The position numbers and the translations under genes were made by a program. The notes under the pieces were generated by a model. It had not been told where the DNA came from. It was given only the letters and a program-made list of their open reading frames with translations, and searched no databases. Below are positions 7,185-49,721 of a stretch of 64,000 nt of DNA, piece after piece; position 1 is the stretch's first letter; the number at the start of each line of letters is the position of its first letter. This stretch comes from an uncultured Pseudomonadales bacterium (GTDB lineage: Bacteria; Pseudomonadota; Gammaproteobacteria; Pseudomonadales; Azotimanducaceae). The stretch covers positions 3,695,154-3,759,153 of the forward strand of contig OY282447.1 in assembly GCA_958296165.1 (NCBI GenBank). Direction: 5' to 3'.

Positions 7185-7185
7185 C

Positions 7186-8409
7186 ATGATCCGCGCCGCA
7201 CGCCATGCGCTCATCGCCGGTTTGGCTGCCGCTGCCTTGAACGTCGCTGGCGCGCCGCTGCCGCGCGCCGAACCAGTCGCGGTGGGCCTTTCCGCCGAGC
7301 GGCTGGCCGACTTGCGCACCGAGCTTGAGAATCTGGTAGAGCAGGGCGTGTTTCCCGGCATCGTCGGCATGGTGGCGCGGCACGGCAAAGTGGCGTTCGC
7401 GCACGCCGCTGGCCAGCTCGACGTGGAGACGAAAGCGCCGATGCAGCTCGATTCGCTGCTGCGCATCTACTCCATGACCAAGCCGGTCACCAGCGTCGCG
7501 GCCATGATGCTGGTAGAGGACGGCATGCTGCAGCTGGATGCGCCGGTCACGCAGTTCTTCCCGGAATGGCGGAACATGACGGTGCTCGTTGGCGACGACC
7601 GCGTGCCGGTTGCGACCCCGATCACCGCGCGCCATCTGCTGACCCACACGGCCGGGCTGAGCTACGGCTACTACGGCGACACGGAGGTGGATCGGCTGTA
7701 TCGCGGCGCCGGATTGATCGACGATTGGGACTACCTGGCGCACGACACGCGCGAACTGGTCACGAAGCTCGCCGCAATCCCGCTGCTGTTCCAGCCCGGC
7801 TCGCGCTGGCACTACGGCTTTTCCACGGACGTGTTGGGTCATCTGATCGAACGCGCCAGCGGCCAACGTCTGGACCATTTCCTAGAGCGCCGTCTGTTCG
7901 CGCCGCTAGGCATGGCAGACGCCTATTTCGACGTGCCGCCGGAGGTGCTCAACCGGTTCGGCACGGATCACTACGTCGCCGAGGACGGCACGGTCACCGT
8001 GCAGGACAGCCCGCGCGAGGATCCTGAGTTCATCGGCGTCACGTTTCTGTCCGGCGGCGGCGGTCTGGTCACCACGGCGGGCGACTTCATGCGCTTTTGT
8101 CTGCTGCTGGCGGGCGGCGGCGCGATGGGCGACGTGCGCCTGCTGCAAGAGGCCAGCGTCGCGCAAATGACCACCAACCAGCTGGCCGCGGACGCCGCGA
8201 TGCAGTTCGGCCTCGGTTTCGCCATCGCCGGCGAAGACAACGGGCCGCTGGCGCCGGGCGCGTACTACTGGGGCGGCGCAGCCGGCACTTTCTTCTGGGT
8301 GGATCCTGCCAATCAGCTGATCGGCGTCTTCATGCCGCAACGGATCGGTGCGCCGGATGCCGTGCAAGCCCGGCTCCAGCAGCTCGTCTACGATGCGCTT
8401 GAGCGCTGA
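7186..8409 (+). CDS. Serine hydrolase, class C beta-lactamase/EstB family, exported
   Basis: A 407-residue penicillin-binding-protein-like serine hydrolase. The N-terminus is a signal peptide (ARHALIAGLAAAALNVAGA). Motif 1 is SMTK (Ser nucleophile and Lys) in the YSMTKPVTS context. Motif 2 is the Tyr in WHYGFS, and motif 3 is WGGAAGTFFW, where Gly-Gly replaces the Lys-Thr-Gly of true beta-lactamases. This pattern is seen in esterases and peptidases of the family rather than resistance enzymes. The ATG at 7186 is chosen because it starts the signal peptide; it lies one base after the previous stop. The 3' end overlaps rsmJ by 17 bases. Confidence 0.85.
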   Translation: MIRAARHALIAGLAAAALNVAGAPLPRAEPVAVGLSAERLADLRTELENLVEQGVFPGIVGMVARHGKVAFAHAAGQLDVETKAPMQLDSLLRIYSMTKPVTSVAAMMLVEDGMLQLDAPVTQFFPEWRNMTVLVGDDRVPVATPITARHLLTHTAGLSYGYYGDTEVDRLYRGAGLIDDWDYLAHDTRELVTKLAAIPLLFQPGSRWHYGFSTDVLGHLIERASGQRLDHFLERRLFAPLGMADAYFDVPPEVLNRFGTDHYVAEDGTVTVQDSPREDPEFIGVTFLSGGGGLVTTAGDFMRFCLLLAGGGAMGDVRLLQEASVAQMTTNQLAADAAMQFGLGFAIAGEDNGPLAPGAYYWGGAAGTFFWVDPANQLIGVFMPQRIGAPDAVQARLQQLVYDALER

Positions 8410-8983
8410 GGGCGACCGCCAGCTTACGCAAACGCTGGCGCTGCCAGACGTCAAGCGGCGGCTGCGCCAAGGGCGGCGTTCGGCGCTCGGCAGAGCGTGC
8501 GCCGCCGCGCCGGGTCTGCGCGTTCACGACGCCCTGGCCGGCTGGGGCACCGACGGTTTGGTGCTGGCGATGTTGGGCTGTCGCGTCCACATGAGCGAAC
8601 GCAGCGCTGAGGTCTATAGCGTGCTGTCTGCGCGTGTGGCGGCGTGGCTTGGCGTCGAGCCTGGCGCCGAGCCCACCTGCCAGCTAGAGGATGCCCGCAG
8701 TTGCTGGCGCGAGCGCGGCTGCTTCGACGTCGTCTACTTGGATCCCATGTTCGGTGCGCACCCAAAGTCGGCGCTGCCAGCGCGGCACATGCAGGTGCTC
8801 GCCGGGATTGCCCATGCACAGTGCGACGAGAGCATCCACGCGCTGATCGAGCAGGCGCGTGGCGTGGCGACAGCGCGCGTGGTCGTCAAGCGTCGCGCCA
8901 ACGCCAGTGCCGTCGGCCAACCGGATTGGCACATTCGCGCCCGCAGCGTGCGGTTCGACGTCTATCGGCCGAGTTCGGCTTGA
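8393..8983 (+). CDS. rsmJ: 16S rRNA (guanine1516-N2)-methyltransferase RsmJ
   Basis: A 196-residue SAM-dependent methyltransferase. The glycine-rich SAM loop is DALAGWGTDGLVLAMLGC, followed by the acidic MSERSAEV, where the ribose-binding acid lies. The catalytic-site motif VVYLDPMFGAHPKSAL matches the family's DPMFP-KSA signature closely. The protein is a little shorter than E. coli RsmJ at the N-terminus. The start (ATG, MRLSAEGDRQ) lies inside the end of the serine hydrolase gene, which implies translational coupling. Its 3' end overlaps convergent plsB by 22 bases. Confidence 0.85.
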   Translation: MRLSAEGDRQLTQTLALPDVKRRLRQGRRSALGRACAAAPGLRVHDALAGWGTDGLVLAMLGCRVHMSERSAEVYSVLSARVAAWLGVEPGAEPTCQLEDARSCWRERGCFDVVYLDPMFGAHPKSALPARHMQVLAGIAHAQCDESIHALIEQARGVATARVVVKRRANASAVGQPDWHIRARSVRFDVYRPSSA

Positions 8984-11436: not shown

Positions 11437-11460
11437 CAGCCTAGCGCGTCCGCTTCGACG

Positions 11461-13410
11461 TTATTGCGCCGAGTTGCCTTCGAAGACTTGCTTGAGATCC
11501 GTCGGCACCGGCGACTCGTCGCCGCGCAGCCGGTAGATGCCCTCGTAGCGATCGTTGGCTAGCCGCGCGGCATCGCCGGCTGACAGGAGTACGGTGGGTC
11601 GCAGGAACATCAGCAGGTGGCGCTTGACCAAGGTCTTGCGCTTGGAGCGGAAGGCGCGCCCCAGCAGCGGTATGTTGCCGAGCAGCGGCACGCGCCGACC
11701 GACATTGCTGTAGTCGTCCTGGATCAGGCCGCCCAGCATGACGATCTGCCCGTCGTCCACCAAGATGGTGGTCTCCAGGGAACGGTTGTTGGTGACGATG
11801 TCGGCGAAGCCGGCGTTGCCGATGTTGATGCCGCCGCGCGCGTCCGAGTCGGCTACGTTGCCCACCGACAAGGTCACCGCCATGCGCATCGACAAGTCCT
11901 CGTGAATGTGCGGCGTCACCTTGAGTTCCACGCCGACGTTCTCGCGATTGATGGTTTGGAAAGGGTTGCTCGCGCCGTCCGTGGTGGTTGTGAAGGAGCC
12001 GGTGCGGAATGGAATCTGCTGGCCCGATATGTTGGTCGCTTCTTCGTTGTCCAAGGTCAGCACGCTGGGCGTGGAGAGCAGATTGGCGCGGGTGTCCGTG
12101 GCCAGGGCGCCGATGATGGCGCCGAAGAAGACCCCGTCCGCATTCAGCTTCGCGAGCGCGATTGTCGGCGATTGGAAGCCGGCAACCACCGCCAACGGGT
12201 CTATGCCGACGGTGGCGTTGTCCGTGCTTGAGCCGGCGCGCGTCAAGATGCTGCCGAGCACGCCATTCAGGGTGGTGCTGACGAGCGGCTTGGTTTGCCC
12301 CCTGGCGTCGCCGCCGCCGAGTTCGACGCCTTGGCTGTCTACAGTGCTGAGCGAGATCTCGACCACGGCGGCTTCGATCAGCACTTGCGCCCGGCGCACG
12401 TCGAGCTGGGCGACGGTGTTTAGAATCTCGCTCATGGTGGTGGGTTCGGCCCGCACGATGAGCGCGTTCAAGGTCTCGTCCGCTTGGATGTTGGCAACGG
12501 GCGCGTTTTCCGCCGCCGACTCGTTCACCAGCTTGTCCAGAATGCCTGCCACGGCTACCGCGTCGGCGTGATTGAGATGGATGACGCGCGCTGCGTTGGT
12601 GGCTGTCTCCGGCACGTCTAGCTTGTCGATCAACACCAGCGCCTCGGCGATGGCCTGTGCCTTGCCTTTGAGGATCAGCGAATTGTCGCGTTCGTTGGCG
12701 ACGATGAGCACGCGCTGCGGCCCCTTGGCGTTTCTGCCCAGCTGCTCGGGCGCGATCTCCTCCAGCAAAGTCGCCACCGATCCCACCCAGGCATGTTCGA
12801 GGACGCGATGCACCACCTCTTCCTCGTCCAATATGTCGAGTTTCTCGATCAACGCCAGAAGGCGCGCCACGTTGGCGGCCAATCCGACGACGATGACGAC
12901 ATTGGGCTTGTCGATGGCCGCGATATGGCTGGTCTGCGGCACCAGCGGGCGCAGCGCCTTGAAGATGTCGGTGGACAGCACGTGTGCCACCGGCACGACC
13001 TGGGCGACCATCATGTCTGCCGGCCGTCCGGTCGGCTCGGTCACGGGGCCAGCGGACGACCGCAGCGCCGGGCTTTCCACGACGCTGACAACGCCATTGG
13101 CCTCGACGGCGCCAAGCCTGTGAACGCGAAGCACGGTCAGGAACAGCTCGTAGACGCCGTCCGCGTCCAGTTCGACGTTGGAGATCACGGTGATGTTCTG
13201 GCTCTTGATGCGCGAATCCACCACGATCGTCTTGCCGGTGATTTCGGCCACTTGGGCGATGAACTCGTCGAGCGGCATCGAGTCGCCGTTGACCGTCCAA
13301 GATTGGGGCTGGGCGTACACGGGGCCGGCCAGTGCCACCATGCAAGCCAACGCAACGGCACAAGCGCGGATGGTCGAAGTCGATTGCATGTGCGCGCTAG
13401 TTGATGGCAA
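11461..13410 (-). CDS. gspD: Type II secretion system secretin GspD
   Basis: A 649-residue outer-membrane secretin, the channel of the type II secretion system. After a signal peptide (CAVALACMVALAGPVYA) come N0 (MPLDEFIAQVAEITGKTIVVD) and three ring-building N domains. The N domains show the repeated pattern of NVVIVVG, RVLIVANERDNSLIL and NALIVRAEP. The C-terminal secretin domain carries the signature VPLLGNIPLLGRAFRSK. Either the ATG at 13410, overlapping gspC by 14 bases, or the ATG at 13389 directly before the signal peptide could be used; the second makes a better signal peptide. It follows gspC as in xps/gsp operons. Confidence 0.95.
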   Translation of the reverse strand: MPSTSAHMQSTSTIRACAVALACMVALAGPVYAQPQSWTVNGDSMPLDEFIAQVAEITGKTIVVDSRIKSQNITVISNVELDADGVYELFLTVLRVHRLGAVEANGVVSVVESPALRSSAGPVTEPTGRPADMMVAQVVPVAHVLSTDIFKALRPLVPQTSHIAAIDKPNVVIVVGLAANVARLLALIEKLDILDEEEVVHRVLEHAWVGSVATLLEEIAPEQLGRNAKGPQRVLIVANERDNSLILKGKAQAIAEALVLIDKLDVPETATNAARVIHLNHADAVAVAGILDKLVNESAAENAPVANIQADETLNALIVRAEPTTMSEILNTVAQLDVRRAQVLIEAAVVEISLSTVDSQGVELGGGDARGQTKPLVSTTLNGVLGSILTRAGSSTDNATVGIDPLAVVAGFQSPTIALAKLNADGVFFGAIIGALATDTRANLLSTPSVLTLDNEEATNISGQQIPFRTGSFTTTTDGASNPFQTINRENVGVELKVTPHIHEDLSMRMAVTLSVGNVADSDARGGINIGNAGFADIVTNNRSLETTILVDDGQIVMLGGLIQDDYSNVGRRVPLLGNIPLLGRAFRSKRKTLVKRHLLMFLRPTVLLSAGDAARLANDRYEGIYRLRGDESPVPTDLKQVFEGNSAQ

Positions 13411-14263
13411 CGGTCACGGCAAGCCGCTGTTCGCCACGCTCGATTTCAATGCGCGCCGAACCTTCGGCGAGGATGTCTTCGATGCGCAATCGATCCTGCG
13501 CCGGGTCGCCGACGTTGCGCCCGTTCACGGAAAGAACGCGGTCGCCGCGCTGCAAACCGACGTGGCTGAAATCCGGGTGCTCCGCTAGCGCGCCGATGGC
13601 GTAGCCGTCGGCGCCGTCGTCCGAGACGCGCGCGACGCCCACGTCGGCAAGGAATCGGTTTGGGTCCCTTGCCAGCTCGTCGCGCAACGTGGTGAGCGCC
13701 TTGCGAGTCGAAGACGGATCGTCTTGCGGCGGCTTGGGCTCTTGTGCGGCTGGTACGCCGTGGCGTTCGGCGACCGGCTGCAGCGCCGTCTTGCGGCCCT
13801 CGAATCGAAGCTGTTCGCGCACGCCGCCGCGGCTGATGACTACGTGATCCTGGAAGACGGCGGCGAGTTTGGCATTGCCCGGCACACGGTCGCCGACGCG
13901 ATAGCTCTCGGCAGCGCGACCCTTGCCGGCGATCAGGGCCACCGAGAAGACGGCGTCATCCGCCACGAACACGCCGATCAGCTCCAACGACAGTCGCGTT
14001 TCCGGCAGCGTCGCGGTTTGCGCGGCAGCATCGAAAACGGCTGCCGGCTCGCCGAACAGATGCCAGCTGGCCACCTGCTCGATGGGTATGCGGGCTGGGC
14101 CGCTGGCCGGCCGCGCCACCACCTCCGTCGGCGAAGACGAGGACGCTTCGGAGAACTGCGGGCCGAATGCAAAGAACATCGTCGCCCTCGCCAAGGAAAA
14201 CCCGATGCCGACGATGACGGCGATGTGCGCGACGATCGCCAGCGGCTTGTGAATGTTGGCCAC
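13397..14263 (-). CDS. gspC: Type II secretion system protein GspC
   Basis: A 288-residue inner-membrane protein that links the inner platform to the secretin. It has a short cytoplasmic start, one membrane helix (LAIVAHIAVIVGIGFSLA), and a periplasmic homology region (IPIEQVASWHLFGEP, LELIGVFVADDAVFSVALI, YRVGDRVPGNAKLAAVF). A C-terminal PDZ domain follows (FSHVGLQRGDRVLSVNGRNVGDP). The order gspN-gspC-gspD on the minus strand is compact. The remaining gsp genes (E to M) are not in this window, so the system is split or continues elsewhere. Confidence 0.95.
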   Translation of the reverse strand: MANIHKPLAIVAHIAVIVGIGFSLARATMFFAFGPQFSEASSSSPTEVVARPASGPARIPIEQVASWHLFGEPAAVFDAAAQTATLPETRLSLELIGVFVADDAVFSVALIAGKGRAAESYRVGDRVPGNAKLAAVFQDHVVISRGGVREQLRFEGRKTALQPVAERHGVPAAQEPKPPQDDPSSTRKALTTLRDELARDPNRFLADVGVARVSDDGADGYAIGALAEHPDFSHVGLQRGDRVLSVNGRNVGDPAQDRLRIEDILAEGSARIEIERGEQRLAVTVAIN

Positions 14264-34792: not shown

Positions 34793-35587
34793 GTGCCCCG
34801 TTTCGAGCTACGCCGCCAGCGCGTTTTCCTGGTGCTGGCCGGGCTGTTCCTGGGCACGCTTTCGCTCTTGAATCTGCTCGGCATCAGCCGCTTCGTGGAT
34901 CTTTCCTTCACGATCTTCGGCCTCGAAGTGCCGATGATCGTCGCCGTGGGCGTGCTGCCCTATCCGATCACCTTCCTCTGCACCGACCTGATCAGCGAGC
35001 TGTACGGCCGCAAACGCGCTACCGAGGTGGTGTGGATGGGTTTGGTGTTGAACGTGTGGATCGTCATCATTCTGTGGATCGGCGGCGCACTGCCGGGAGC
35101 GCCAGGCGCGGAGAACGTGGATCCGGCCACGGGCGAGCTGATCCCAGACGCCGCTGGCAGACTGCCGCCGTTCTTCGAGATTCGCACGTTGGCGTTCGGC
35201 GCGGTGACGGCCTCGATGATCGCCTACTTGGCCGCCCAGTGGTGCGACGTGCAGCTCTTCCACCTCTGGAAGTGGCTCACCAAGGGCCGCCATCTGTGGC
35301 TGCGCAACAACGGTTCCACGCTGGTGAGCCAGCTGGTGGACACCGTGGCGGTCATCCTCATCACGCACTACTGGGCCAAGGCGCTGCCCGTGGACTTGAA
35401 CATGCCGATCGCACAGCAGCTCATCGTTCTCATCGCCTCCGGCTACGCCTTCAAGGTCACCGTGGCGTTAGTGGACACCGGCCCGATCTATCTGCTGGTG
35501 GCGTGGCTGCGCCCGTTCCTCGGCATCGCAAAGGATCAGGAGATAGGCGTGGGCGACCGGCCCGTGGTAGTGAGCGCTCGCTCCTGA
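34793..35587 (+). CDS. yhhQ: Queuosine-precursor transporter, YhhQ family
   Basis: A 264-residue inner-membrane protein of the YhhQ/Vut_1 family, which imports 7-cyano- or 7-aminomethyl-7-deazaguanine. About six membrane helices are visible. The family signature is FLCTDLISELYGRKRATEVVW, with DTVAVILITHYW and SGYAFKVTVALVDTGPIYLL later. The GTG start lies 3 bases after the SDR stop. With the PTPS/QueD-like gene upstream it suggests queuosine or related 7-deazapurine metabolism. Confidence 0.9.
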   Translation: MPRFELRRQRVFLVLAGLFLGTLSLLNLLGISRFVDLSFTIFGLEVPMIVAVGVLPYPITFLCTDLISELYGRKRATEVVWMGLVLNVWIVIILWIGGALPGAPGAENVDPATGELIPDAAGRLPPFFEIRTLAFGAVTASMIAYLAAQWCDVQLFHLWKWLTKGRHLWLRNNGSTLVSQLVDTVAVILITHYWAKALPVDLNMPIAQQLIVLIASGYAFKVTVALVDTGPIYLLVAWLRPFLGIAKDQEIGVGDRPVVVSARS

Positions 35588-35606: not shown

Positions 35607-37103
35607 TCAAGCGGCGGATCCGGCCAAAGCGACCAGCGCCTTGCGCACCTCCAGCGTCGCCAAGGAGTCCTGTTTGCAGTAGGCGCGCAAGGCGGAGAAG
35701 GTCTGTTGGCGCTCCGCCAAGTCGTCATTGGCGAGGGCGCGCTGGTAGAGGGCTGCGGCCTGTCTTCCGTCCCCTATGGCCAAGTCGTCGTAGCCTAGGC
35801 CCGGCGCGAGGGCCGGCAGCACGCTCTTGAGGGAAAAGGAGCCGCGGAAATCCGGGTGGTAGCAGTGGTTGCGCACCACCGGCAGCAAGTCGAACAGCCG
35901 TGCTTCGATTGCGCTAAGCGCCTTCGCCCACTGCGGAAACGCCGCCGCCAATTCCCGCAGCATCCGCCGCTCGTAGGGCGAATAGACGCAGATGGATCCT
36001 TCCTCGCCAAGGGCGTCCAGCAGACGTTTGGCCAGCATGGGGCGCGGGTCGTCTTCCCCTTCGTGCAGATAGTCCACATGGGCCGGCGATTGCCCATCGT
36101 GCTCCGTATGTACGGAGAACAGGAAGGGGATGGAGTCATGAGGCCGAGTGCCGGCGAAGCGGGGGATGGCCGGCGCGAAAGTCTCGAAATCCAGATGGCG
36201 CACCGGCGGCTTGATGCGGGCTAGTGCCTCCGTCAAGTTGCCATGCATTTGGATGCGCCCTTGCAGCACCGCCGTGTGCACGATCTGGTGCAGAGGACTG
36301 AGAGGGAAACTCTCTGGGATGTCCTTGATTTCGTTGATGCCCGCCTCTTCCAACTTGCTGCGGCTGTTCTTGCCAAGCTTCCACAACTCGCCAATCCCAT
36401 GCTCCGGCCGGGCCAGACCGTGGGTGCAGTGCGCGTAGTACGGGCAAACGTAGGGTGAGGTACATTGCTTGCCGGGCGCGATGATGGGTGCCTCCGATTG
36501 GGCAACCGTGGCCCGCATTTCCTGAGCTTCACCGCCGATGCCTTCCAACAGTGCTGTGGCCTCGTCAAGGACGGGATGCAGTTTGAACAGCGCGTTCACA
36601 TCCAGCCGGACGCCATCGTAGACATAACCCCGGTTCAGGGTGAGCACCCCGGCCTCCCGCACATCCAGCCCGGCGCCACGCAGCACCCATAGCTGAACGG
36701 CAACGTCCAGAACGAGAACGTCCTTGAGCCGGGTGGTGGACTTCACCTCCACCAACCGCCAACCACCATCAGGCAGGCGCTCGAGCACATCGGCGCGAAC
36801 CAAGACATGCTCATGCTCGAATGCAGCCTCGAAGAGCGCGGGCGCGGTGCCCGCATCGATGACCTGCCGGGTCTCTTCCAGCGCCTCCTGCTGATGCTCG
36901 TGATCGTGCGAGATCAAATGCCCGCCGGGATAGCGCCGACAGGCAAGCTTGCCTACTTCGTGGCCGGTGTCGAAGACGAGCTGCTGGGCCTCATCGGCGG
37001 GCGCGGCAAGATCGGGGGCGTGGAAGTAACGCCAAAGATGCAGATGGCACTGCTTGCCTCTTAGGTAGGTGGATTTGGAGAGGCGGGGGCCTATGATTGC
37101 CAA
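35607..37103 (-). CDS. DUF2779 protein with RecB/Cas4-like and DEDD-type nuclease domains
   Basis: About 498 residues. The N-terminal half resembles a RecB/Cas4-type PD-(D/E)XK nuclease. It has an early Cys (LRGKQCHLHLW), VLVRADVLERLPDGGWRLVEVKSTTRLKD (Asp, Glu-x-Lys) and late Cys residues (GKQCTSPYVCPYYAHC) that could hold an iron-sulfur cluster. The C-terminal half is DUF2779, with an exonuclease-like start (VRHLDFETFAPAIP), ICVYSPYERRML and a closing DSLATLEVRKAL. The TTG start at 37103 overlaps the upstream gene stop by 13 bases; the longer open frame has no family support. It is the last gene of the WYL/AAA cassette. Confidence 0.75.
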   Translation of the reverse strand: MAIIGPRLSKSTYLRGKQCHLHLWRYFHAPDLAAPADEAQQLVFDTGHEVGKLACRRYPGGHLISHDHEHQQEALEETRQVIDAGTAPALFEAAFEHEHVLVRADVLERLPDGGWRLVEVKSTTRLKDVLVLDVAVQLWVLRGAGLDVREAGVLTLNRGYVYDGVRLDVNALFKLHPVLDEATALLEGIGGEAQEMRATVAQSEAPIIAPGKQCTSPYVCPYYAHCTHGLARPEHGIGELWKLGKNSRSKLEEAGINEIKDIPESFPLSPLHQIVHTAVLQGRIQMHGNLTEALARIKPPVRHLDFETFAPAIPRFAGTRPHDSIPFLFSVHTEHDGQSPAHVDYLHEGEDDPRPMLAKRLLDALGEEGSICVYSPYERRMLRELAAAFPQWAKALSAIEARLFDLLPVVRNHCYHPDFRGSFSLKSVLPALAPGLGYDDLAIGDGRQAAALYQRALANDDLAERQQTFSALRAYCKQDSLATLEVRKALVALAGSAA

Positions 37104-37810
37104 TCCTTCGGGTCCGGCGACCCAGCATCGTTGGCAGCCCACTCTCTGAGATAGCATGTAAACAACCTACGGACTTCCCCTTCTCCACCCTCATCGACGG
37201 CGTCCGCAAACTCATTGAAGCATATTGTCCGTACACAATTTTCGAGAATAAAATCCATTACTTTTCCGGGTCTAGGTCTTTTCGGAAGGATATATATGAC
37301 GTCCAGTTCTGAGTGCTCCTTAGTGCAAACCCATCCTGCATCTGAAAGCTCGACCAAATTGAGCTCTCTAAGATCGTGAAGCAGGTGGACATACTTTAGT
37401 CTCGTTAGCCTTGAGTTGTTCTTATTCTGAGCCAAACATATGACGTCCTTGATCAAGTCCTGGGACCCTCTACTAGCGACGCCCAGTAGTGTTTCTAACT
37501 GTCCTATGCGCATGGAAGCCACATCTGTCTTCAGTTCAATAAGGATGCCCTGCTGCCGGCTCTCTGACAACGCGAAGTAGTCCACTTGTTTGTGCCTTCC
37601 GTCCTTTTTGTTCTTGTCAATAGGGAACTCTGGAATCAATGGGTATTTGATCTCTATGCCGGAGTATTTCAGAACTTCAGGCAGAAACAATGCAAAGAGT
37701 ACGTCCGTCCTGCGTTCAAGTTGATAGCTCGGTAAGTGCCGCCATCTGTTCAACAAATAGAATAGATCGGTAACAGTCGGATATTCATTAGTTTTCTCAC
37801 GCCGTCGCAT
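37091..37810 (-). CDS. Low-GC PD-(D/E)XK-like protein
   Basis: A 239-residue protein I cannot name. A nuclease-type core is visible: Asp in QVDYFAL (D77), then GILIELKTD (E92 and K94). An upstream helical region (TDVLFALFLPEVLKYSG) and a C-terminal part with a winged-helix look (LLHDLRELNLVELSDAGWVCT) are present. Base composition is clearly lower in GC than the flanks, and codon use differs, so it was probably acquired. It lies between the WYL regulator and the DUF2779 gene and overlaps the latter. Confidence 0.65.
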   Translation of the reverse strand: MRRREKTNEYPTVTDLFYLLNRWRHLPSYQLERRTDVLFALFLPEVLKYSGIEIKYPLIPEFPIDKNKKDGRHKQVDYFALSESRQQGILIELKTDVASMRIGQLETLLGVASRGSQDLIKDVICLAQNKNNSRLTRLKYVHLLHDLRELNLVELSDAGWVCTKEHSELDVIYILPKRPRPGKVMDFILENCVRTICFNEFADAVDEGGEGEVRRLFTCYLREWAANDAGSPDPKDWQS

Positions 37811-37865
37811 ATGTTTCTCCCTAGATCATCTTCACAAACCAAATGCACCTCATGAAGATGGTAAC

Positions 37866-38873
37866 TTAAAAGCCGCCTTCTTGCGCTGCCGAATGATGCG
37901 CTGCAAGCGACGCGCACATCGCCGCCAGACGCCGGCGGAGCCGCCCAGGCTTCTCCACCGTCACGCTCTCGCCCCATGTAAACAGGTGCCAGCACATCTC
38001 GTCAATGCCGCCCGCCTTGAAGCGCACCGTCAGCGAGCCGTCTTCGTTTTCCTCGACGCTCTGGTTCGGATGGAAGCGGAACGCCGCCGCATCCCGCGCT
38101 GCCTTGGCATCGAAGCGGAGCACAACGTTGACCGGCTTTTCCTGGTAGGCGCCGAACGAACGCTCGGCGTAGCGCTGCAAGTCGAACGCCGGATCGCGCA
38201 CGAATGCTCCATCGGTGATCTGGAGCTCGCTGATGTTCGCGAGACGCCACAACCGCGGCTCATCGGCCCAATCGGTCTTCCCTACTAAGTGCGTGCGGTT
38301 CCCATAGAGCAGGCCGTAGGGGCGAACCCGCTGCGTGCTACTCTGCCTCGTCGATTGGGCGAAGTAGCGGAACTCCACCACCCGGCCGGTTGTGATCGCT
38401 TCGCGCAGGAGGGCGAGCAGGCCTTGGTCTAGGCGCTCGCTCGGGCCGGGGCGCATCGCCAAGCCCTCGGCCTGCACCAGCATTTCGAGTTTGGATTCCA
38501 CCCGTGCCTGCGATTCGGTGCGTAACGAGGCTTGCAGCTTGGCTGCCAAGTTTCGGAGCGTGGCTGCCCGTTCGTCGAAGCCGGCGCGCCCGTCGAGCGC
38601 TGCTGCGGCGGCCTCAAGCTCCGCCAGTTCCTCCGCAGAGACGGAAACGAGACGGCGCAAGGCGTCCGAGCGCAGCCGCCAGTGCCGCTTCCCGTCGTCT
38701 CTGTCTACGGGCTCCAACGGCCCGAAGACCGCATCGACAGCGTCGCGCCGGCGCTCGGCGGTGCGCCGGCTGATCGAGAATGCGGCTTGGATTTCGTCGA
38801 TGGTCAACCCGCCGCGAGTGCCTTGGAGACGAACGGCCAAGTCCAGGATGTCCTTCAAGCCTTCGTAGCGCAT
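37866..38873 (-). CDS. WYL-domain transcriptional regulator
   Basis: A 335-residue regulator. The N-terminal helix-turn-helix is LTIDEIQAAFSISRRTAERRRDAV. A WYL sensor domain follows (VVEFRYFAQSTRQSSTQRVRPYGLLYGNRTHLVG), then a WCX C-terminal segment (VVLRFDAKAARDAAAFRFHP, then GIDEMCWHLFTWGESVTV). This is the layout of CapW and BrxR, repressors of phage-defence operons. ATG 38873 has a strong ribosome-binding site (AGGAGGGCAGGAAC) and follows the AAA gene stop by 26 bases. It probably controls the inverted-repeat operators at 41111 and 42294. Confidence 0.85.
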   Translation of the reverse strand: MRYEGLKDILDLAVRLQGTRGGLTIDEIQAAFSISRRTAERRRDAVDAVFGPLEPVDRDDGKRHWRLRSDALRRLVSVSAEELAELEAAAAALDGRAGFDERAATLRNLAAKLQASLRTESQARVESKLEMLVQAEGLAMRPGPSERLDQGLLALLREAITTGRVVEFRYFAQSTRQSSTQRVRPYGLLYGNRTHLVGKTDWADEPRLWRLANISELQITDGAFVRDPAFDLQRYAERSFGAYQEKPVNVVLRFDAKAARDAAAFRFHPNQSVEENEDGSLTVRFKAGGIDEMCWHLFTWGESVTVEKPGRLRRRLAAMCASLAAHHSAAQEGGF

Positions 38874-38899
38874 GTTCCTGCCCTCCTTCGCCCTCGAGA

Positions 38900-41065
38900 C
38901 TACCGCTGAAAGCCGATCTTCTGCGGGCAATCCGGCTTGGCGTCGCATTCGACGCGCAGCATGGCGGCGAGAGCCGTCGGTTCGCTCAAGCAGTCCAGAA
39001 CCTCGGCTTTCCGGTGCACCACCGCAAAATCGCCGGGCGTGAGGGTGCTGAGAGCCGCGACTTCCGGCGGCGGCTCTAGCCCGAAATAGCCCCGGAACGC
39101 CACGCCCGCCTGCTCGGCGGAGAGGTAGTCGAGCGTGATCTTGAACACGAAACGCCGCAGAGTTGCCGGATCGAGATGCGTGCCGAAGTTGGTCGTGCAG
39201 GCGAACGGCGCCGGATGGCTCTCCATCCAGGCCAGCATCTCGTTGACTTGGCTGATCTCCCAGCTCTTGTCGGCGAAGCGCCGGTCCGAGAGCAGCGAAT
39301 CGGCCTCGTCGAAGACGAGGAAGGCACCGCTATCACGCGCCTCTGCGAACGCGGCGGCGATCTGCTTCTCGGTCTGCCCGACCCACATCGACATCAGATC
39401 AGACGCCCGCTTCTGCACGACTTCCAGGCCGAGGCGCTCGGCAAGGTAGCGCACGAACGCGCTCTTGCCCGTACCGGGCGGCCCTTGCAGGCATAGGGAG
39501 AAGCGCCGCTCGCCGCTGCTTGCGAGGCGGTCCGCGAGCCTCAGCGGATCGGTGTCGGCCTGGATGAGCGCGGGGTCGTACCGAGCCGGCGTACCTTGGG
39601 GCGGCTTGTCGCTGCCTAGTACGCGGGACAGGCTGCGCACGCCGCGGCGCACTGAGGCGAGGTCGCCGCCGCCGAGCCGCGCGGCGGCGGTGGCGCCGGC
39701 CGCCACGCCGGGGGTGGCCTCGAACTCCTGGGCCAGCGAGAGCGCGTCTTCCGGCCCGGCCTCGATGCCGTGGCGGGCAAGCTGGCGCGTCCACACCCGT
39801 GCTCTCACCTTGGGCGGCGGCAGGCGCAGCTCCAACGCGAACATCATGCGACGCAGGACGGCGGGGTCCACCGTCCCGGTATCGTTGATGGTCCACAGGG
39901 TCGGTGCCGGCGCATCCTCCAGCAGCCGGTTCGTGAACACCTTCGAGCCGCCGGCCCGCGATCCGCGGGGCCCTGGAGAGAGCAACCCGCCGAACATGCC
40001 TAGGCCCGCAAAGGAACCCGAAAGCAGATCCTCCATTTCATCGAAGAGAAGGAGCGAGCGGCGGCCCCGGGCGATGAGGCGCTGGGCGAGCCGGAGCTCT
40101 TGCAGCCTCTCGTTGCGGGTGGGTTCGTCGCCGTCTTCGTCCGCTTCCCCAACGCTGTGGAGATCCACCCCGAGCCGCCCGGCCAGTACCTTGCAGAACT
40201 CCGTCTTGCCAGTGCCCGGAGGGCCGTACAGCAGCACATTCACGCCCGCCTCGCCGGTGTCGAGGGCACCCTTAAGCAATCGCTCGATGTGGTCGCGGTC
40301 GTGCCCGATGTGATCGAAGTCCGACCATTCGAGCTCGCTCGGCGACGCCTCTCCGAGCAGCAGGCGGTTCACGTCCAGCCCAGGGCCGCCGGGAATCGTG
40401 GCTAGGCGGTGCAGCCGGTGGACGAGCGTGAGGTCGCCGTCGTCGCTGTCGATGCACACGAGCCCCGAGCGGATGAGAGGCGCATCGGTGCGCAGGCGGC
40501 CGAGGATCGAATTGCCCGAGAAGCCGAGGAAGGCGGACAGCACCGGACTCTTGAGATTGAAAGGCGTGCCTCGGAACTCCATGACGCTGTCGATCATCGA
40601 TTCGATGATCGGCTGCGTCTGGTAGCGCAGCATGAGTTCCAGGATGGCGATGTCCGTCTGGGAGAGGCCCGCCGTCTTGCCAAGACTCCGCAGCCGCTGT
40701 GCCGTCCGATCGCTTCGTGCGGGCTTTTCGGCGGAACACTTGTTCTGCAGGGCTCTTCCGAGGCGGCGCCATTGCGTGCTGGTCGGCCCATTCGTGCAGT
40801 CTTCGAGATCCTTGAAGTCCTCGGCCGCGAGGACGTCGTCGAGGTCCAGGCGCTTGCGGCCAACGTTCGACGGAGGCACGCGGGACCGCCTCCGTTTCGC
40901 GCGCAACGCGGGTGGTGCCTTGCTTCTGCTCCCGAACGCCATGCGGCGGCCATTGGAAGCGATCCACTCCACCAGCTCCTTCGCTTCCGGGTCACGGTGA
41001 TGAAGGCACGAGGCGACGTTCGCTAGATAGCGGACGATCAGGCGTTGTTCATAGGCGGTCAGCAT
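38900..41065 (-). CDS. Double AAA+ ATPase of a WYL-associated cassette
   Basis: A 721-residue protein. The N-terminal 250 residues are a helical region without a recognised domain. The first AAA+ module has Walker A GPPGTGKT (281-288) and Walker B LLLFDEMED (about 338-346), with a sensor-like INDTGTVDPAVLRRMM. The second has GPPGTGKS (528-535), FLVFDEADSLL (582-592) and the arginine-finger region LDPATLRRF (about 631-639). The layout recalls Cdc48/ClpB-type unfoldases or remodellers. ATG 41065 is chosen because a second copy of the same N-terminus exists upstream. It heads a minus-strand run with WYL, PD-(D/E)XK and DUF2779 genes. Function unknown. Confidence 0.75.
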   Translation of the reverse strand: MLTAYEQRLIVRYLANVASCLHHRDPEAKELVEWIASNGRRMAFGSRSKAPPALRAKRRRSRVPPSNVGRKRLDLDDVLAAEDFKDLEDCTNGPTSTQWRRLGRALQNKCSAEKPARSDRTAQRLRSLGKTAGLSQTDIAILELMLRYQTQPIIESMIDSVMEFRGTPFNLKSPVLSAFLGFSGNSILGRLRTDAPLIRSGLVCIDSDDGDLTLVHRLHRLATIPGGPGLDVNRLLLGEASPSELEWSDFDHIGHDRDHIERLLKGALDTGEAGVNVLLYGPPGTGKTEFCKVLAGRLGVDLHSVGEADEDGDEPTRNERLQELRLAQRLIARGRRSLLLFDEMEDLLSGSFAGLGMFGGLLSPGPRGSRAGGSKVFTNRLLEDAPAPTLWTINDTGTVDPAVLRRMMFALELRLPPPKVRARVWTRQLARHGIEAGPEDALSLAQEFEATPGVAAGATAAARLGGGDLASVRRGVRSLSRVLGSDKPPQGTPARYDPALIQADTDPLRLADRLASSGERRFSLCLQGPPGTGKSAFVRYLAERLGLEVVQKRASDLMSMWVGQTEKQIAAAFAEARDSGAFLVFDEADSLLSDRRFADKSWEISQVNEMLAWMESHPAPFACTTNFGTHLDPATLRRFVFKITLDYLSAEQAGVAFRGYFGLEPPPEVAALSTLTPGDFAVVHRKAEVLDCLSEPTALAAMLRVECDAKPDCPQKIGFQR

Positions 41066-41136
41066 GGCTCTCTCCAGGTCGTGAGGTGTCGATATGGCGA
41101 GGTTAGCGTGCCGATACGTCAGATTCGGACGTATCG
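41001..41136. repeat. Direct repeat, copy 1 (AAA 5' end plus promoter)
   Basis: About 136 bases covering codons 1-22 of the AAA gene and its upstream region are repeated at 42182-42319 with roughly ten differences and a 2-base insertion. The high identity indicates a fairly recent duplication. Confidence 0.9.
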
Positions 41137-41421
41137 GTGTGCGGAAAGTCAAGATTCCGCCACGCGGTGCTACCTGTGCGCGGTCACGGTTCATGCTCAA
41201 AGGACGTAACAGGGCGTCTCGTGTTCGTCCGGCGCAGGGAAGTGAGGCGTTGAGTTCCGCGCGAACGCACCGGTCGGGTGACGGTGTGGACGGCGGCATC
41301 GGCCGCGGCCACGTCGGGCATATCGTCGCTGATGGATTACGTTTTGGAAGAGCCCGCCTAGATCAGCGTTACAACCGGAGTGAGGCCGCGAGCCTGATCT
41401 GCAGCCACTGTAACTGACCGG
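41066..41421. other. Intergenic region holding the AAA-gene promoter
   Basis: A 356-base non-coding gap between two same-strand genes. The part next to the AAA gene contains the operator at 41111-41137 and, on the minus strand just upstream of it, a TTGACT box that is kept (as TTGACA) in the duplicated copy. The remaining 250 bases are GC-rich with no gene I can support. Confidence 0.5.
41111..41137. promoter_or_regulatory. Inverted-repeat operator upstream of the AAA gene
   Basis: CCGATACGT (41111-41119), a 9-base spacer and ACGTATCGG (41129-41137) form a perfect inverted repeat 46 bases before the AAA start codon. The same element recurs at 42294. It is a probable binding site for the dimeric WYL regulator encoded in the cassette. 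Confidence 0.6.
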
Positions 41422-42060
41422 CTATCCCCTCTTCTTCCAGACCCGCCGGCCGTCGCCGCGCTCTCTTTCCCAGAGAATTCGCTGACCATCGACCAAGCCC
41501 TCGATTTTGATAAGTTCATCTCCTAGAGGAAGTTCGATATGGAGTGGCTTGTCTGGCATCATCCAATCCGGCCAGCACTCCGTTTCAACTTTTCTCGAAC
41601 GGCTAGGCGACATCAACAAGAAGTGAGGTCTGATGCCTTTGTCGCTGTCTCGGAAGATATAGTCCAAACGTATTGCTTTAGCACACAGCTGTGAGTTGTC
41701 CCAAGAAGTGTCCGCCTTCGCTTCCACGAGGATAATACGCTCGTCCGAACCATCCTGAAAAGCGACGAGTAGATCAATGTCCTGCTGATTCAGTTGAGCC
41801 TTTTGATCCGGTGGAAATAGGTCGTTGGGAACACTAGATGGTAAAGATGTATTGCGATACTTTGAGGCAATATGGAGCCAATTGAGATGGTAGTCCATCG
41901 CTACGAAAGCATCGTCAGGAACAGAGCAGTCAATCAAGCACTCTACTTCCTTCCTGAAGGAGGAATCAAGTGAGAACGTATCCTGCCCCAGTGTTCTCTT
42001 CAGCAAAATAAATCGTTCCTTCCTATTAAACGCCTTGAGATGGGAAATGAAATGCGACAT
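41422..42060 (-). CDS. Second low-GC PD-(D/E)XK-like protein
   Basis: A 212-residue protein with the nuclease-type core NQQDIDLLVAF (D94/D96) and IILVEAKAD (E113, K115). A C-terminal beta-rich part follows (PLHIELPLGDELIKIEGLV). It resembles small restriction-endonuclease-fold proteins but I cannot name a family. It is markedly lower in GC than its surroundings. ATG 42060 has a strong ribosome-binding site (GAGGAGGGCGGCC). It is framed by the two copies of the AAA promoter repeat, so it sits downstream of operator copy 2 and a 45-codon AAA fragment. Confidence 0.65.
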   Translation of the reverse strand: MSHFISHLKAFNRKERFILLKRTLGQDTFSLDSSFRKEVECLIDCSVPDDAFVAMDYHLNWLHIASKYRNTSLPSSVPNDLFPPDQKAQLNQQDIDLLVAFQDGSDERIILVEAKADTSWDNSQLCAKAIRLDYIFRDSDKGIRPHFLLMSPSRSRKVETECWPDWMMPDKPLHIELPLGDELIKIEGLVDGQRILWERERGDGRRVWKKRG

Positions 42061-42108
42061 GGCCGCCCTCCTCAATGTTCCAGAAGACCAAGAAGTGCTT
42101 CGTGGTGC

Positions 42109-42246
42109 CTAGCCCGTGACCGTAGACGCAAGTGCGGCCACTGTCAACACTTGGAACTCATGTCTCGGCGGCCATTGGAGGTGAAGGCACGAGGCGACGT
42201 TCGCTAGATAGCGGACGATCAGGCGTTGTTCATAGGCAGTGAGCAT
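42109..42246 (-). pseudogene. Truncated copy of the AAA gene N-terminus
   Basis: A 45-codon ORF whose first 22 residues (MLTAYEQRLIVRYLANVASC and two more) are identical to the AAA ATPase start, then diverges to an early stop. A 14-base match further in (CGGCGGCCATTGGA) shows that the copied segment once went further and suffered a deletion. It ends 49 bases before the PD-(D/E)XK gene and would be its leader if transcribed. Confidence 0.8.
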
Positions 42247-42319
42247 GGCTCTCTCCAGGTCGCGAGGTGTCGATGTGGAGAGAGGTTAGCGTGCCGATAC
42301 GTTAGATTTGGACGTATAG
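42182..42319. repeat. Direct repeat, copy 2 (AAA 5' end plus promoter)
   Basis: The counterpart of 41001-41136. The inverted-repeat operator is kept with one arm mismatch, and the minus-strand TTGACA box is kept upstream of it. Confidence 0.9.
42294..42319. promoter_or_regulatory. Operator copy 2
   Basis: CCGATACGT, a 9-base spacer (TAGATTTGG) and ACGTATAG; one mismatch breaks the otherwise perfect symmetry seen in copy 1. The spacer length is the same. Confidence 0.55.
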
Positions 42320-42374
42320 ATTGCGTGAATGTCAAAAAAGTCATCCGGTGCGCTTGCACGCGGACGGCGATGCA

Positions 42375-46810: not shown

Positions 46811-48238
46811 TCAGTCACTCGCCGAATCGAGCGAGAGCAGGTCGTCACTGATGTCCTTCACGGAGCGATACCTGAGTGGGCGAGAGAGCTTCTCTAGCGC
46901 ATCTTCGGCGACCAGGCGCCTCAAACAAGAGCGAGTGTGTTTCGTGGGTACTTGGAGCAACTCGGCAACTTCCACCTCCGTCTTGCACACATCAGATCCC
47001 TTGAATAGATCTTTGATCTTTCCTTCAACGAAGCGTCTGAGCCATATGTCAGCTTGTTTTTTCGAGACTTGCAGCCTAGCGGCCACGCTGATTTCCGTTA
47101 CGGGCCCGTTCATGCGTTCGATTAGCTGTTCGACCTTTGCGAACAATTCATTAGCCGGCGCGAGATCGGTTTCGGGCCCAGCGTCATTTCGGCTTCGTCT
47201 CGCTGTCCCTTCCAATTTGCGCTCGTCCAACAACACCGAGAGTTCACGCACGGCACTCGAAGGGGGCGGTCGTTCAGATTTGCGCTGTTCGTTACTTCGT
47301 GCGGCGTCGAGGACTCGCTCAACAGCGGCCGAAGTGGCGGGATGGGGCCATGGCCTTGCGCCCCGTGCGCGAAGTTCCTCGATGCCTCGCGCTACTTCGC
47401 CATTGGAGCGAACGTAGATCGGTACGAGCTTCAGCTTGTCGAGCTGTTCGATCGCTCCGGCCCAAGTGCCCCCTTTTTCGTAGTCCGCATTGACGACCAG
47501 CGCCGCATCCGCGAGCGCATAGACCAGCTTGTTGCGCTGCATCGCGTGTCCAACTTGGAAACCAGCCGCAGGGTCGTATTGGCTGATCAAGGTCATCCGC
47601 CCATCCATCAGCGCTTGTCGGTTTTCGCGGCGCATCACAGCCTTTTCGAGACCGTTAGCGAGGACGCCCGCCACGCGCCCGCCCGCGTTCAGCGCACCGC
47701 GCATCGCCGCTTGGTCCACACCCCTAGCGCCACCCGAAATTAGACCGCGCCCGGCCTCGGCAGAAAGCCTACCGACGTTTTCGGCGTATCCAACCAGAGT
47801 GCTGGGAATGTCTCGAGATCCCACTACGGCCAAGCCGCCGGCGCTCAGAGTCGCCGGATCCCCGCAGCCATAGAGCACTGGCGGAGCGTCGTCCCCTAGG
47901 CGCTTCTTTAGACGGCGCGGATAGTCGGCGTCCGCCCTGCTTCGAACCCAGATGGCCCGCGTCCGCCAGTGTTCCACCGCCTGCGCGAGGAGAAGGCCCC
48001 GGCTGAGTAGTTGCTCGAGCCTCGGGGTGTCCAGTTGGGTGCCGCATTCGATCAAGACGTCGCGTAAGTGTCCGGTGAGCAGGTCCGAAGGTTGACGGTT
48101 CAGATCTCGTAGCCGGCAGGCAAGAGAACGGTATTCGCCAACTCCGAGTGGTTTCACGACAGGTTTGGCTCGCCCAGCAATCAACGGGGCAGTCAACAGC
48201 AAAATCGCCTGCGTGTTGGGAGACAGATCGAACGTCAT
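46811..48238 (-). CDS. DprA/Smf-like protein
   Basis: A 475-residue protein with the Rossmann-type DprA fold: [26 protein letters not shown], then [39 protein letters not shown] and [10 protein letters not shown]. It is followed by the region around [21 protein letters not shown]. The C-terminal 150 residues add two winged-helix-like segments ([40 protein letters not shown]), unlike housekeeping DprA. ATG 48238 lies 5 bases after the stop of a RecQ-phosphoribosyltransferase remnant. Such a pairing suggests a defence or DNA-processing system rather than competence. Its partner is broken here. Confidence 0.75.
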
Positions 48239-48243
48239 GGCGG

Positions 48244-48480
48244 TCAACTCGCCAGCGCGAGAGCAAGCGGCCACACCACGCCGCTGCCGTGGGATCGGAG
48301 GAGCCACGCGGCTACTGTAAGGGTCCAGCGCGAATCCACCATGTCGTCTACCAGCAGCACTGTGTGGTTCGGCAACCGATCACGGTTGCTTGTGTGCCGT
48401 AGCGGCTGCGCGGACCTTCCGAAAGTGTTCGGAGCGGCGGCAGGTCTGGTGCGCGGTCATCACCTACATCCCGATGACGA
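48244..48480 (-). pseudogene. RecQ-phosphoribosyltransferase fusion, C-terminal remnant
   Basis: Read on the minus strand, the last 45 codons give the phosphoribosyl-pyrophosphate-binding loop [20 protein letters not shown] and a closing PLALALAS before TGA. This matches the tail of RecQ-type helicases that carry a fused phosphoribosyltransferase domain. Farther upstream the match continues only across a frameshift (FRKVRAAATA-like) and then fades by about 48480. No start remains. It lies directly upstream of the DprA-like gene. Confidence 0.75.
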
Positions 48481-48599: not shown

Positions 48600-49721
48600 T
48601 CAGGACGGGTGCCGAAGTCGTGCTGGCAGACGTCCAGCTGGCCGACCTTTGGCGGCACGGTTCTCCTTAATCCGCGTCCCCAGCAGTTGCAGCACGGCAC
48701 TTGAATCGCTTGCAACCGTATAGCACTGCACTGGCACGGATTTTGCCTGTTCTTTCAGCTCTTGCGACAGCTCGTTTTCAACGACAAGCAACGACTTGAC
48801 TTCGCGAGTGCTACTGGAGTGATCGACGCGTTGCCGCACCTTTTCTACTGCCTTGTACTTGACGCACTGATACAGGCCGCGCATGATGTCGCTCTCCGTC
48901 GATATTTTCGATTTGACCTCAATGTGCCAGATAATATCCTCGTTGCGTGCCGTGACGTCTACTCGGTCACCGCTCGGTAGTTCGCATTCCATCTCCCGGC
49001 TAATGACCTCCACCTGTCGACCGCTGATCTTGCTCAAAATCCTCTCGCAATTCTCACACACATACTCCTTCAGCGTCTTGTGCTCCATTCCCTCACCCTC
49101 GCCACCGAACTCGGCGCGGTTGACCGTCGGCGCAGATGTCCGGGAACCAACGGAACGCGCGTGACGCTCTTGCAGGAGCTTCCGTCCGGCGTTCGTCGCG
49201 TATAGCCTTCTGCCCTTCTTTTCCAACAACCCCGCGGACTGCAGCCACCCTCTTCGCCACTGGATCTGGCGGACACCGACGCTAAGACCGTACTCGCTCT
49301 TCGCAAGCGAGCTAAGCTCATCTTCGCTAGCACCATCCCGAGCCTCATTCAACATGTCTAGGATGAATACGACGTTGTCATCGATAGTCTCAATGATCTT
49401 ACGGTCTCTATCCCTGCTTCTTGGAAACGCGCACTTGATATGGTCCCCCCTCTTTGTCAAGAGTCCGCACCTAAACAAAGAGTTGATATAACCCGGTACC
49501 AAGCTGGTCGCAGTTTTGAACTCTTGGACGTACCAAGATTTGAGGTCCTCCTTCGTCGAAGGCTTTTCTGCCTCGACGTACGCGAGGATGACGTCGAGAG
49601 TCTTAATATAGCGTTCGTATCCACCACTCAGAGGTTGTATCGATTTCTTCTTGCTGATGTGCTTGTCCACTGTCCCTTCCTTACGCGCGTTTCGCTGCGT
49701 TTTCTTGCGGCCGGTACTCAC
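48600..49721 (-). CDS. Winged-helix/PD-(D/E)XK endonuclease-like protein
   Basis: A 373-residue protein. The N-terminal 180 residues form two similar helix-turn-helix units (LDVILAYVEAEKPSTKEDLKSW... and VVFILDMLNEARDGASEDELSS...), each ending in a GLL-type wing. The C-terminal part has a nuclease core, RVDVTARNEDIIWHIEVKSK (D255, E268, K270). This resembles restriction endonucleases of the type that pair winged helices with a cleavage domain, though I cannot name one. GC is lower than in the flanks. The last 18 residues (basic, Arg/Pro-rich) look like read-through into foreign flanking DNA. It sits inside a split RecQ gene. Confidence 0.7.
   Translation of the reverse strand: MSTGRKKTQRNARKEGTVDKHISKKKSIQPLSGGYERYIKTLDVILAYVEAEKPSTKEDLKSWYVQEFKTATSLVPGYINSLFRCGLLTKRGDHIKCAFPRSRDRDRKIIETIDDNVVFILDMLNEARDGASEDELSSLAKSEYGLSVGVRQIQWRRGWLQSAGLLEKKGRRLYATNAGRKLLQERHARSVGSRTSAPTVNRAEFGGEGEGMEHKTLKEYVCENCERILSKISGRQVEVISREMECELPSGDRVDVTARNEDIIWHIEVKSKISTESDIMRGLYQCVKYKAVEKVRQRVDHSSSTREVKSLLVVENELSQELKEQAKSVPVQCYTVASDSSAVLQLLGTRIKENRAAKGRPAGRLPARLRHPS

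Follow-up and report, generated by a model that had tools for sequence, protein, structure and literature searches.

A DriD-type WYL regulator encoded with an AAA+ ATPase and exchangeable nucleases: a candidate defence module with predicted induction by single-stranded DNA

We analyzed a 64,000-nucleotide stretch of DNA, here called the window, from an uncultured Pseudomonadales bacterium (contig OY282447.1 of assembly GCA_958296165.1, positions 3,695,154 to 3,759,153). An earlier note, made from the letters alone, had singled out positions 35607-42319 as a possible defence cassette comprising an AAA+ ATPase with two modules, a WYL regulator, two PD-(D/E)XK proteins and a DUF2779 nuclease on a single strand, and open reading frame calls and Pfam matches agree with that gene list. 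In the direction of transcription the five genes run DEXK1, AAA+, WYL, DEXK2, DUF2779, all on the minus strand. On balance, we read them as an accessory AAA+/nuclease module that would be induced by single-stranded DNA (ssDNA) and most likely acts against phages or mobile elements. This reading is built on the kinship of the regulator to DriD, on a DriD-type box ahead of the ATPase gene, and on the recurrence of the ATPase and regulator in other genomes with changing nuclease partners.

Results

The WYL gene (37866..38873, minus strand) encodes a 335-residue regulator of the wHTH-WYL-WCX layout, with Pfam WYL and WCX domains. In a sequence search of the Protein Data Bank (PDB), structures of Caulobacter DriD matched it over residues 22-341 of a 360-residue frame, with a best E of 2.5e-64; entries 9PFQ, 9PFV and 9PGA are DriD complexes (PMC12340889). 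The segment RRTAERxRDAV is common to the two proteins, with 21 of 36 residues identical around it, and was taken for a putative recognition helix. At E <= 10 the search returned eight sequences, all of DriD or PafBC type, and neither BrxR nor CapW, whose presence in the PDB copy we assumed from PMC9122601 and PMC9122588. The regulator had been described in the earlier note as of the CapW/BrxR kind; we rejected that membership on homology, which points to the DriD type instead. That the window protein is a full-length DriD-type homologue is well supported by its sequence, and by analogy it would sense ssDNA and activate transcription. DriD is an activator triggered by ssDNA. Its binding site, ATACGAC-N7-GTCGTAT, covers the -35 region and keeps a constant spacing to the -10; sites are known at didA, bapE, recJ and dnaG in Caulobacter (PMC12340889).

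Elsewhere in the window genome (L219, G000:C1:1291000-1306000, positions 6402-14171) there is another DriD-like WYL gene, which shares 61% identity with that of the window. It is followed by E1-like and E2-like genes and by a gene for a Leo-like GTPase, the latter matched by PADLOC, which makes this another WYL-led, defence-looking locus. A further frame in it without a PADLOC match is presumably a second GTPase, by our reading.

Upstream of the AAA+ gene, inverted-repeat and genome pattern scans identified the perfect palindrome ATACGTC-CGAATCT-GACGTAT (41114..41134, minus strand), within a best inverted repeat that none of 100 shuffles reached. It departs from the DriD consensus by one symmetric change, and its left half is the same as that of the site in the didA promoter, ATACGTC-CGTTTCT-GGCGCAT (PMC12340889). 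No other site in the 5.07-Mb genome matches ATACGWC-N7-GWCGTAT exactly. The sites with one mismatch are the promoter copy ahead of DEXK1, described below, and one distant site; at up to two mismatches there were 17 sites versus 10 for a reversed-pattern control, so that weak matches mean little. A -10-like hexamer, TAACCT (41100-41105, minus strand), follows 8 bp after the box as a predicted -10, and in our own alignment the didA and driD sequences each show a weak hexamer at the same 8-bp distance.

Boxes were found at related loci as well. In G010, G011, G012 and G015, all of the same genus, it stands 65-73 nucleotides (nt) before the AAA+ start with no mismatch to the relaxed pattern, while in G001 one AAA+ locus has a box with two mismatches and the other (L014) has none. 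For a wider count we took 72 AAA+-family loci and kept 70, one having failed the score filter and one having too little upstream DNA, searched up to 250 nt from the start of the AAA+ frame, and compared spacers of 3-11 on the same sequences. At a spacer of 7 and up to two mismatches the box was present at 20 of 70 loci, compared with 0-2 of 70 for each of the spacers 3-6 and 8-11 and with 1 of 46 control AAA loci; at up to one mismatch the figures were 15/70, 0-1/70 and 0/46. The AAA+ loci are kin to one another, and the 20 with a box, which carry differing nucleases, are not 20 independent events. In four of them (L016, L020, L103 and L109) the box falls inside the longest frame, and in the three that are annotated it lies ahead of the annotated start. 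Boxes also precede ADP-ribosylglycohydrolase (ARG) genes in L016, L017 and L023. Across 22 rows, the -10-like hexamer 8 bp past the box has A at position 2 in 16 and T at position 6 in 14, a tally made without a control set. As a DriD-type box the element is well supported, and its binding by the WYL protein is predicted.

The AAA+ family (E <= 2.2e-164) was found in eight of 16 genomes of the genus, at nine loci. In the window the cassette lies between yhhQ (34793-35587, plus strand) and galU (43640-42375, minus strand); the names of these two and of the other flanking genes are our own reading. The run queD-SDR-yhhQ was present in all 16 genus stretches fetched, and 12 of them had HAD too. 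DNA similarity between the window and its 15 relatives ends at the end of yhhQ, galU is not next there, and up to 1.5 kb searched after yhhQ gave no cassette DNA match; in seven of these relatives longer stretches were scanned, and no profile for AAA+, WYL, DUF2779 or the payloads matched. G015, the nearest relative, has AAA+ (79% identity), WYL (87%), a DEXK1 homologue (42%) and DUF2779 (81%) in one run at a different site, preceding what we take to be a nuoG-like gene. In G011 the identities are 41% for DEXK1, 54% for AAA+, 25% for WYL and 59% for DUF2779. DUF2779 occurred in three of the 16 genomes, each with one copy beside AAA+, and G015 and G011 hold extra copies elsewhere. The remaining AAA+ loci of the genus have other neighbours; in G012, for example, an AAA-ATPase_like/PDDEXK_9 protein stands between AAA+ and WYL.

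The association of AAA+ with WYL extends beyond the genus. A scan of the genome_contigs set with the AAA+ alignment gave at least 80 loci, fetched without considering their neighbours, which we divided into 30 of the family (>=295 bits) and 50 generic AAA controls (<=167 bits). Among the loci listed, 16 of 30 family loci had WYL no more than 5 kb from AAA+, versus 0 of 50 controls (Fisher p = 5e-9), and no WYL was found anywhere in the 50 control loci; when only loci with 5 kb on both sides were counted, the values were 10/16 versus 0/33 long controls. DUF2779 was present in 3/30 of the same loci versus 0/50 controls. Among the best 15 of 617 plasmid records with any AAA match, 13 had WYL within 5 kb and four had DUF2779, and of six genus loci (the window and two short-contig loci excluded) five had WYL and two DUF2779.

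In a class sample of 274 genomes, with no more than four AAA candidates scored per genome, so that counts are lower bounds, AAA+ (E <= 1e-60) was present in at least 21 and DUF2779 in 17. At least six genomes had both. In G000, G068, G214, G222 and G249 the two lay no more than 10 kb apart on a single contig, and in G112 they were on different contigs. DUF2779 was within 10 kb of AAA+ in at least 4 of 16 other carriers, where about 0.01 would be expected by chance assuming 3-Mb genomes. These relatives also served to build the profiles for WYL, DUF2779 and the payloads, on which the counts therefore depend. The recurrence of the AAA+/WYL set is well supported. The earlier note had proposed to test whether the AAA+, WYL and DUF2779 genes recur together, and had named as contrary outcomes that the AAA+/WYL pair never keeps company with nucleases or that its genes are single-copy core genes in all relatives; we found a recurrent, accessory pair that does occur with nucleases.

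The nucleases themselves change from locus to locus. One type of AAA+/WYL neighbourhood has DUF2779 with or without small PD-(D/E)XK genes. Another has an AddB-like PD-(D/E)XK protein and a UvrD helicase, joined in three loci by ARG. A third has a protein of about 400 residues with a PLD-like protein and an SNF2-type helicase (Pantoea, Rahnella, Desulfosarcina) and, in Rhodoferax, PDC-M27A/B, and a fourth has Sir2, with PglZ and BrxD nearby (Sphaerotilus); a cluster (C10) made up for the most part of frames antisense to the AAA+ gene was ignored. From these gene contents payload exchange is well supported, and of the proposal that DUF2779 belongs to the system its place beside AAA+ in several loci stands, while its status as a fixed part gives way to that of one among several interchangeable payloads. 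In two class loci, L162 (G068) and L163 (G214), a stretch of 20 kb has AAA+ and profile matches for both Sir2 and DUF2779, with HEPN in L162 and RtcB in L163; genes of these kinds are found repeatedly near this AAA+ family. The G011 cassette belongs to a larger defence island, since nearby (L013:1-5019) there are genes for a NERD-helicase protein, matched by PADLOC RTasNERD-Hel at E = 4e-58, and for a MkoA-like protein of 1079 residues (E = 7e-29).

The AAA+ gene (38900..41065, minus strand) encodes 721 residues with two AAA modules, matched by Pfam AAA in two stretches, and both Walker A/B pairs appear intact on visual reading of the family alignment. Its closest solved sequences were of the CDC48/p97/NVL type; the likeness is confined to the AAA module, and we rejected equivalence with CDC48/p97. 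The AAA+ stop and the WYL start (38873) are separated by 26 nt and WYL and DEXK2 by 55 nt, and DEXK2 and DUF2779 overlap as called.

The DUF2779 gene (35607..37157, minus strand, start uncertain) matches PF11074 at E = 4.6e-36 and 124.3 bits, against a Pfam cut-off of 23.3, with an additional RNase_H_2 match. Residues C37/C232/C238/C244, H66, D123, E137 and K139, and likewise D323/E325/D423/D497, are invariant in 4/4 aligned sequences. Going by the roles of such residues in known families, we take the former to be a Cas4-like PD-(D/E)XK site with four cysteines and the latter to be the acidic set of an RNase H-fold 3'-5' exonuclease. The family has been described as DUF83 (PD-(D/E)XK-like) joined to a presumed 3'-5' exonuclease (PMC3985635).

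DEXK1 (41422..42060, minus strand, 212 residues), with homologues in the G015 and G011 cassettes, has a motif D96...E113-x-K115 that is invariant in 6/6 sequences. Its AlphaFold2 model (predicted local distance difference test, pLDDT, 74) matched many restriction-fold nucleases (Cap4, HincII, BamHI, EcoO109I, McrBC) as well as unrelated proteins among the Foldseek matches listed, all weakly (best E = 5.4e-3), and none of the 50 listed reached E <= 0.001. By motif and weak fold matches it is a predicted PD-(D/E)XK-family protein. A single-sequence search gave no homologues on plasmids or viral contigs, and a profile search was positive in three other genomes of 398. The window genome has a second DEXK1 homologue (L201:7967-8575, G000:C1 at about 2.185 Mb), around which 17 kb contain no AAA+, WYL or DUF2779 profile match.

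DEXK2 (37091..37810, minus strand, 239 residues) is a lone protein: no homologues were found on plasmids or in viral contigs, and among the 398 genomes it matched only itself. It has no Pfam match, a weak PADLOC match to PDC-M47B (E = 0.026) and a motif D77...E92-x-K94, on which its candidate PD-(D/E)XK label is based. Structure prediction, suggested in the earlier note for both PD-(D/E)XK proteins, led to the weak restriction-fold matches for DEXK1 and gave no fold for DEXK2 (pLDDT 36).

We also observed, as the earlier note had not, that the promoter and start of the AAA+ gene are directly repeated on either side of DEXK1, over 106 nt at 93% and 54 nt at 81%. The copies (40996-41152 and 42177-42335) each contain a box, a -10-like hexamer and an AAA+ start. 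In the second copy the box reads ATACGTC-CAAATCT-AACGTAT (42297..42317, minus strand; one mismatch to the box pattern), with TAACCT 8 bp downstream (42283-42288, minus strand), and a 45-codon frame ahead of DEXK1 (42109..42246, minus strand) duplicates the AAA+ 5' end in its first part, to about 42177. The copy beside the intact AAA+ gene is probably the older, because its match to G015 still runs to 41222. The DEXK1 homologue of G011 is also flanked by direct repeats (L013:4979-5516 and 6253-6861), in six blocks (37-187 nt), of which five match at 93-99% and the sixth at 72%. Those repeats hold a two-mismatch box and the start of another frame, which we take from its reading to be ATPase-like. 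In both species the DEXK1-family genes look as if they had been inserted with target duplication. Insertion with long target duplication is known for restriction-modification genes.

The foreign base composition claimed for the cassette was borne out in part. The G+C content is lower over 36-39 kb (0.57-0.58) and 40-43 kb (0.58-0.60), but is 0.68 across most of the AAA+ gene. Further along, the window encodes a PsyrA-like DprA/SLOG protein (46811-48307, minus strand; PADLOC PsyrA, E = 5.4e-127); upstream on the same strand, the next long frame (48600-49721) has no PADLOC match, so that no PsyrT partner was identified.

Discussion

The reading we prefer would work as follows. A low basal amount of the DriD-type WYL protein would be kept inactive until ssDNA, arising from phage or plasmid replication or from DNA breaks, bound its WYL domain. 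The activated dimer would then bind the box over the -35 region and bring RNA polymerase to the AAA+ promoter, which is weak, and probably also to the duplicated copy ahead of DEXK1, and AAA+, more WYL, DEXK2 and DUF2779 would be produced. The AAA+ machine, perhaps in complex with its partners, could remodel protein-DNA complexes or load nucleases, and DUF2779 and the PD-(D/E)XK proteins could degrade either the DNA of the invader or, in a suicide response, that of the cell itself; this division of labour is a guess from knowledge of the folds. A defence purpose is likely, and we counted toward it the company that AAA+/WYL keeps, namely PglZ and BrxD near the Sphaerotilus pair, PDC-M27A/B in Rhodoferax, and carriage on plasmids.

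Several observations weigh against this reading. Fifty of the 70 AAA+ loci, L014 of G001 included, had no box near the start as searched, and the TAACCT hexamer of the window is weak. The G010 WYL, the sole one tested there, is a distant relative of DriD (E = 1.1e-8) despite the perfect box at its locus. WYL is not universal: from around 27 AAA+ places in the class sample 20 stretches were retrieved, and it is present in seven of these. AAA+ family members were found within 5 kb in four of the 29 DUF2779 plasmid records, and in none of eight further ones checked; those eight loci had no AAA+ family or WYL profile match, though two carry WYL-annotated genes. Among the best 15 AAA+ plasmids, 10 are non-mobilizable, three mobilizable and two conjugative, and transfer is therefore not evident for most. 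Finally, DriD itself governs host DNA repair and division genes, and a repair role fits the regulator equally well.

This last point leads to a different use of the same switch, in which the cassette is a host DNA-damage response or repair module whose AAA+ remodeller and nucleases act on the cell's own damaged DNA, defence being secondary or absent. The placement of Caulobacter DriD sites at recJ, dnaG, bapE and didA (PMC12340889) and the grouping of DUF2779 among 3'-5' exonucleases (PMC3985635) agree with it. We consider it unlikely all the same, since patchiness (eight of 16 genomes in the genus, at least 21 of 274 in the class), different chromosomal sites, plasmids, payload exchange and the lone DEXK2 form the pattern of conflict genes and not that of repair genes. 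Were the WYL protein instead a repressor released on infection, it would resemble CapW and BrxR, which share its wHTH-WYL-WCX layout, bind inverted repeats and sit by defence systems, BrxR homologues beside many of them (PMC9122601, PMC9122588). The PDB matches, confined to DriD and PafBC-type chains, and a box that fits the consensus of DriD sites and stops 8 bp before the predicted -10, where CapW sites overlap the -10 (PMC9122601, PMC9122588), make this quite improbable. We give still less credence to the cassette being a loose island of AAA+/WYL, DUF2779 and PD-(D/E)XK genes that accumulated as independent selfish or defence genes. DUF2779 and DEXK1 do each occur without the others elsewhere, and payloads vary; yet AAA+-WYL-DUF2779 and DEXK1 recur in all three genus loci with DUF2779 beside AAA+ (G000, G015 and G011), the sites of G000 and G015 differ, and boxes stand ahead of ARG genes at three other loci.

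Going beyond the window, we tentatively propose, as a possibility somewhat short of probable, that the AAA+ family, a DriD-like regulator and the box form a portable core, which has spread through Proteobacteria and serves as an alarm for ssDNA that is independent of SOS. This core would have recruited different nucleases as payloads (DUF2779, AddB/UvrD-like pairs, PLD/SNF2 sets, small PD-(D/E)XK proteins) into one defence regulon, partly by duplicating its own promoter beside a newly inserted nuclease gene. Little is known of how defence genes are silenced and switched on. If the proposal is true, an ssDNA-sensing activator encoded with its targets, and not a repressor, controls many nuclease sets through a single testable trigger; ATRCGWC-N7-GWCGYAT would be a searchable DNA tag for finding new defence genes; and phage defence would be linked to an SOS-independent damage response.

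Comparison with known systems

No hallmark proteins of BREX, DISARM, Zorya, Druantia and the like were found among the five genes with PADLOC 2.0.0 (2023). The matches it gave were judged generic, namely AAA (IetA, TRIP13, mad8, MkoA, SspC and others), WYL/Cas3c, a weak Cas4 and the weak PDC-M47B, with none for DEXK1, in keeping with the earlier view that the set is no named system. IetA of IetAS shares AAA-module similarity with the window AAA+ (E = 3e-27, the best stretch being the second module), and IetAS was rejected at 93.8 bits against a cut-off of 510, with no subtilase among the five genes. PDC-M27 was rejected likewise: its A and B proteins directly follow AAA+-DUF2779-WYL in Rhodoferax, but the window is without those genes, and its AAA+ and WYL were unmatched by the PDC-M27 models. 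TM0106-like RecB nucleases have in common with the window DUF2779 protein the Cas4-like plus RNase H-fold exonuclease architecture with conserved residues; unlike them, it stays below the TIGR03491 (TM0106 family) cut-off (44.7 versus 97.45 bits) and lies in an operon with AAA+ and WYL.

The ARG-centred systems of Iyer et al. 2022 combine a WYL regulator with a restriction-fold nuclease and a helicase as variable effectors (PMC9503650). The ARG variant of the AAA+/WYL neighbourhoods (L016, L017 and L023) resembles them, and the AddB/UvrD type overlaps their predicted systems. The excerpted description mentions no AAA+ ATPase (PMC9503650), and we rejected membership for the window, which has no ARG gene among its five. 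BrxR/CapW operons are alike in having a WYL regulator by defence-type genes and a palindromic operator, and differ in that the window regulator has no chain of theirs among its PDB matches at E <= 10, is a predicted activator, and has its box upstream of the predicted -10 and not over it.

The set of AAA+, DriD-like regulator and DUF2779 was not described among the literature matches listed, a collection that leaves subscription papers mostly outside its scope, so that its absence from print is not proven. The general idea of a WYL-controlled defence operon is already in print: for VC1772, a WYL protein ahead of ddmDE in Vibrio cholerae, such control, perhaps ssDNA-sensing, has been suggested in a review (PMC12409362). 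The defence genes there are other ones, with no AAA+/DUF2779 and, in the excerpts, no box reported. An AAA+/nuclease set under a DriD-like switch is probably an immune or damage-response module of a kind not yet described. Its nearest counterpart in regulation is the DriD regulon of Caulobacter crescentus, with which it shares homology of the regulator over the whole wHTH-3HB-WYL-WCX domain set, a putative recognition segment, the box sequence, the 7-bp spacer and, as we aligned the sequences, apparently an 8-bp distance from box to weak hexamer; bapE, a nuclease gene, is likewise driven by DriD. The known targets of DriD are host genes, whereas the window WYL is encoded alongside the AAA+ and nuclease genes that make up its putative target operon, for which activation by ssDNA is predicted.

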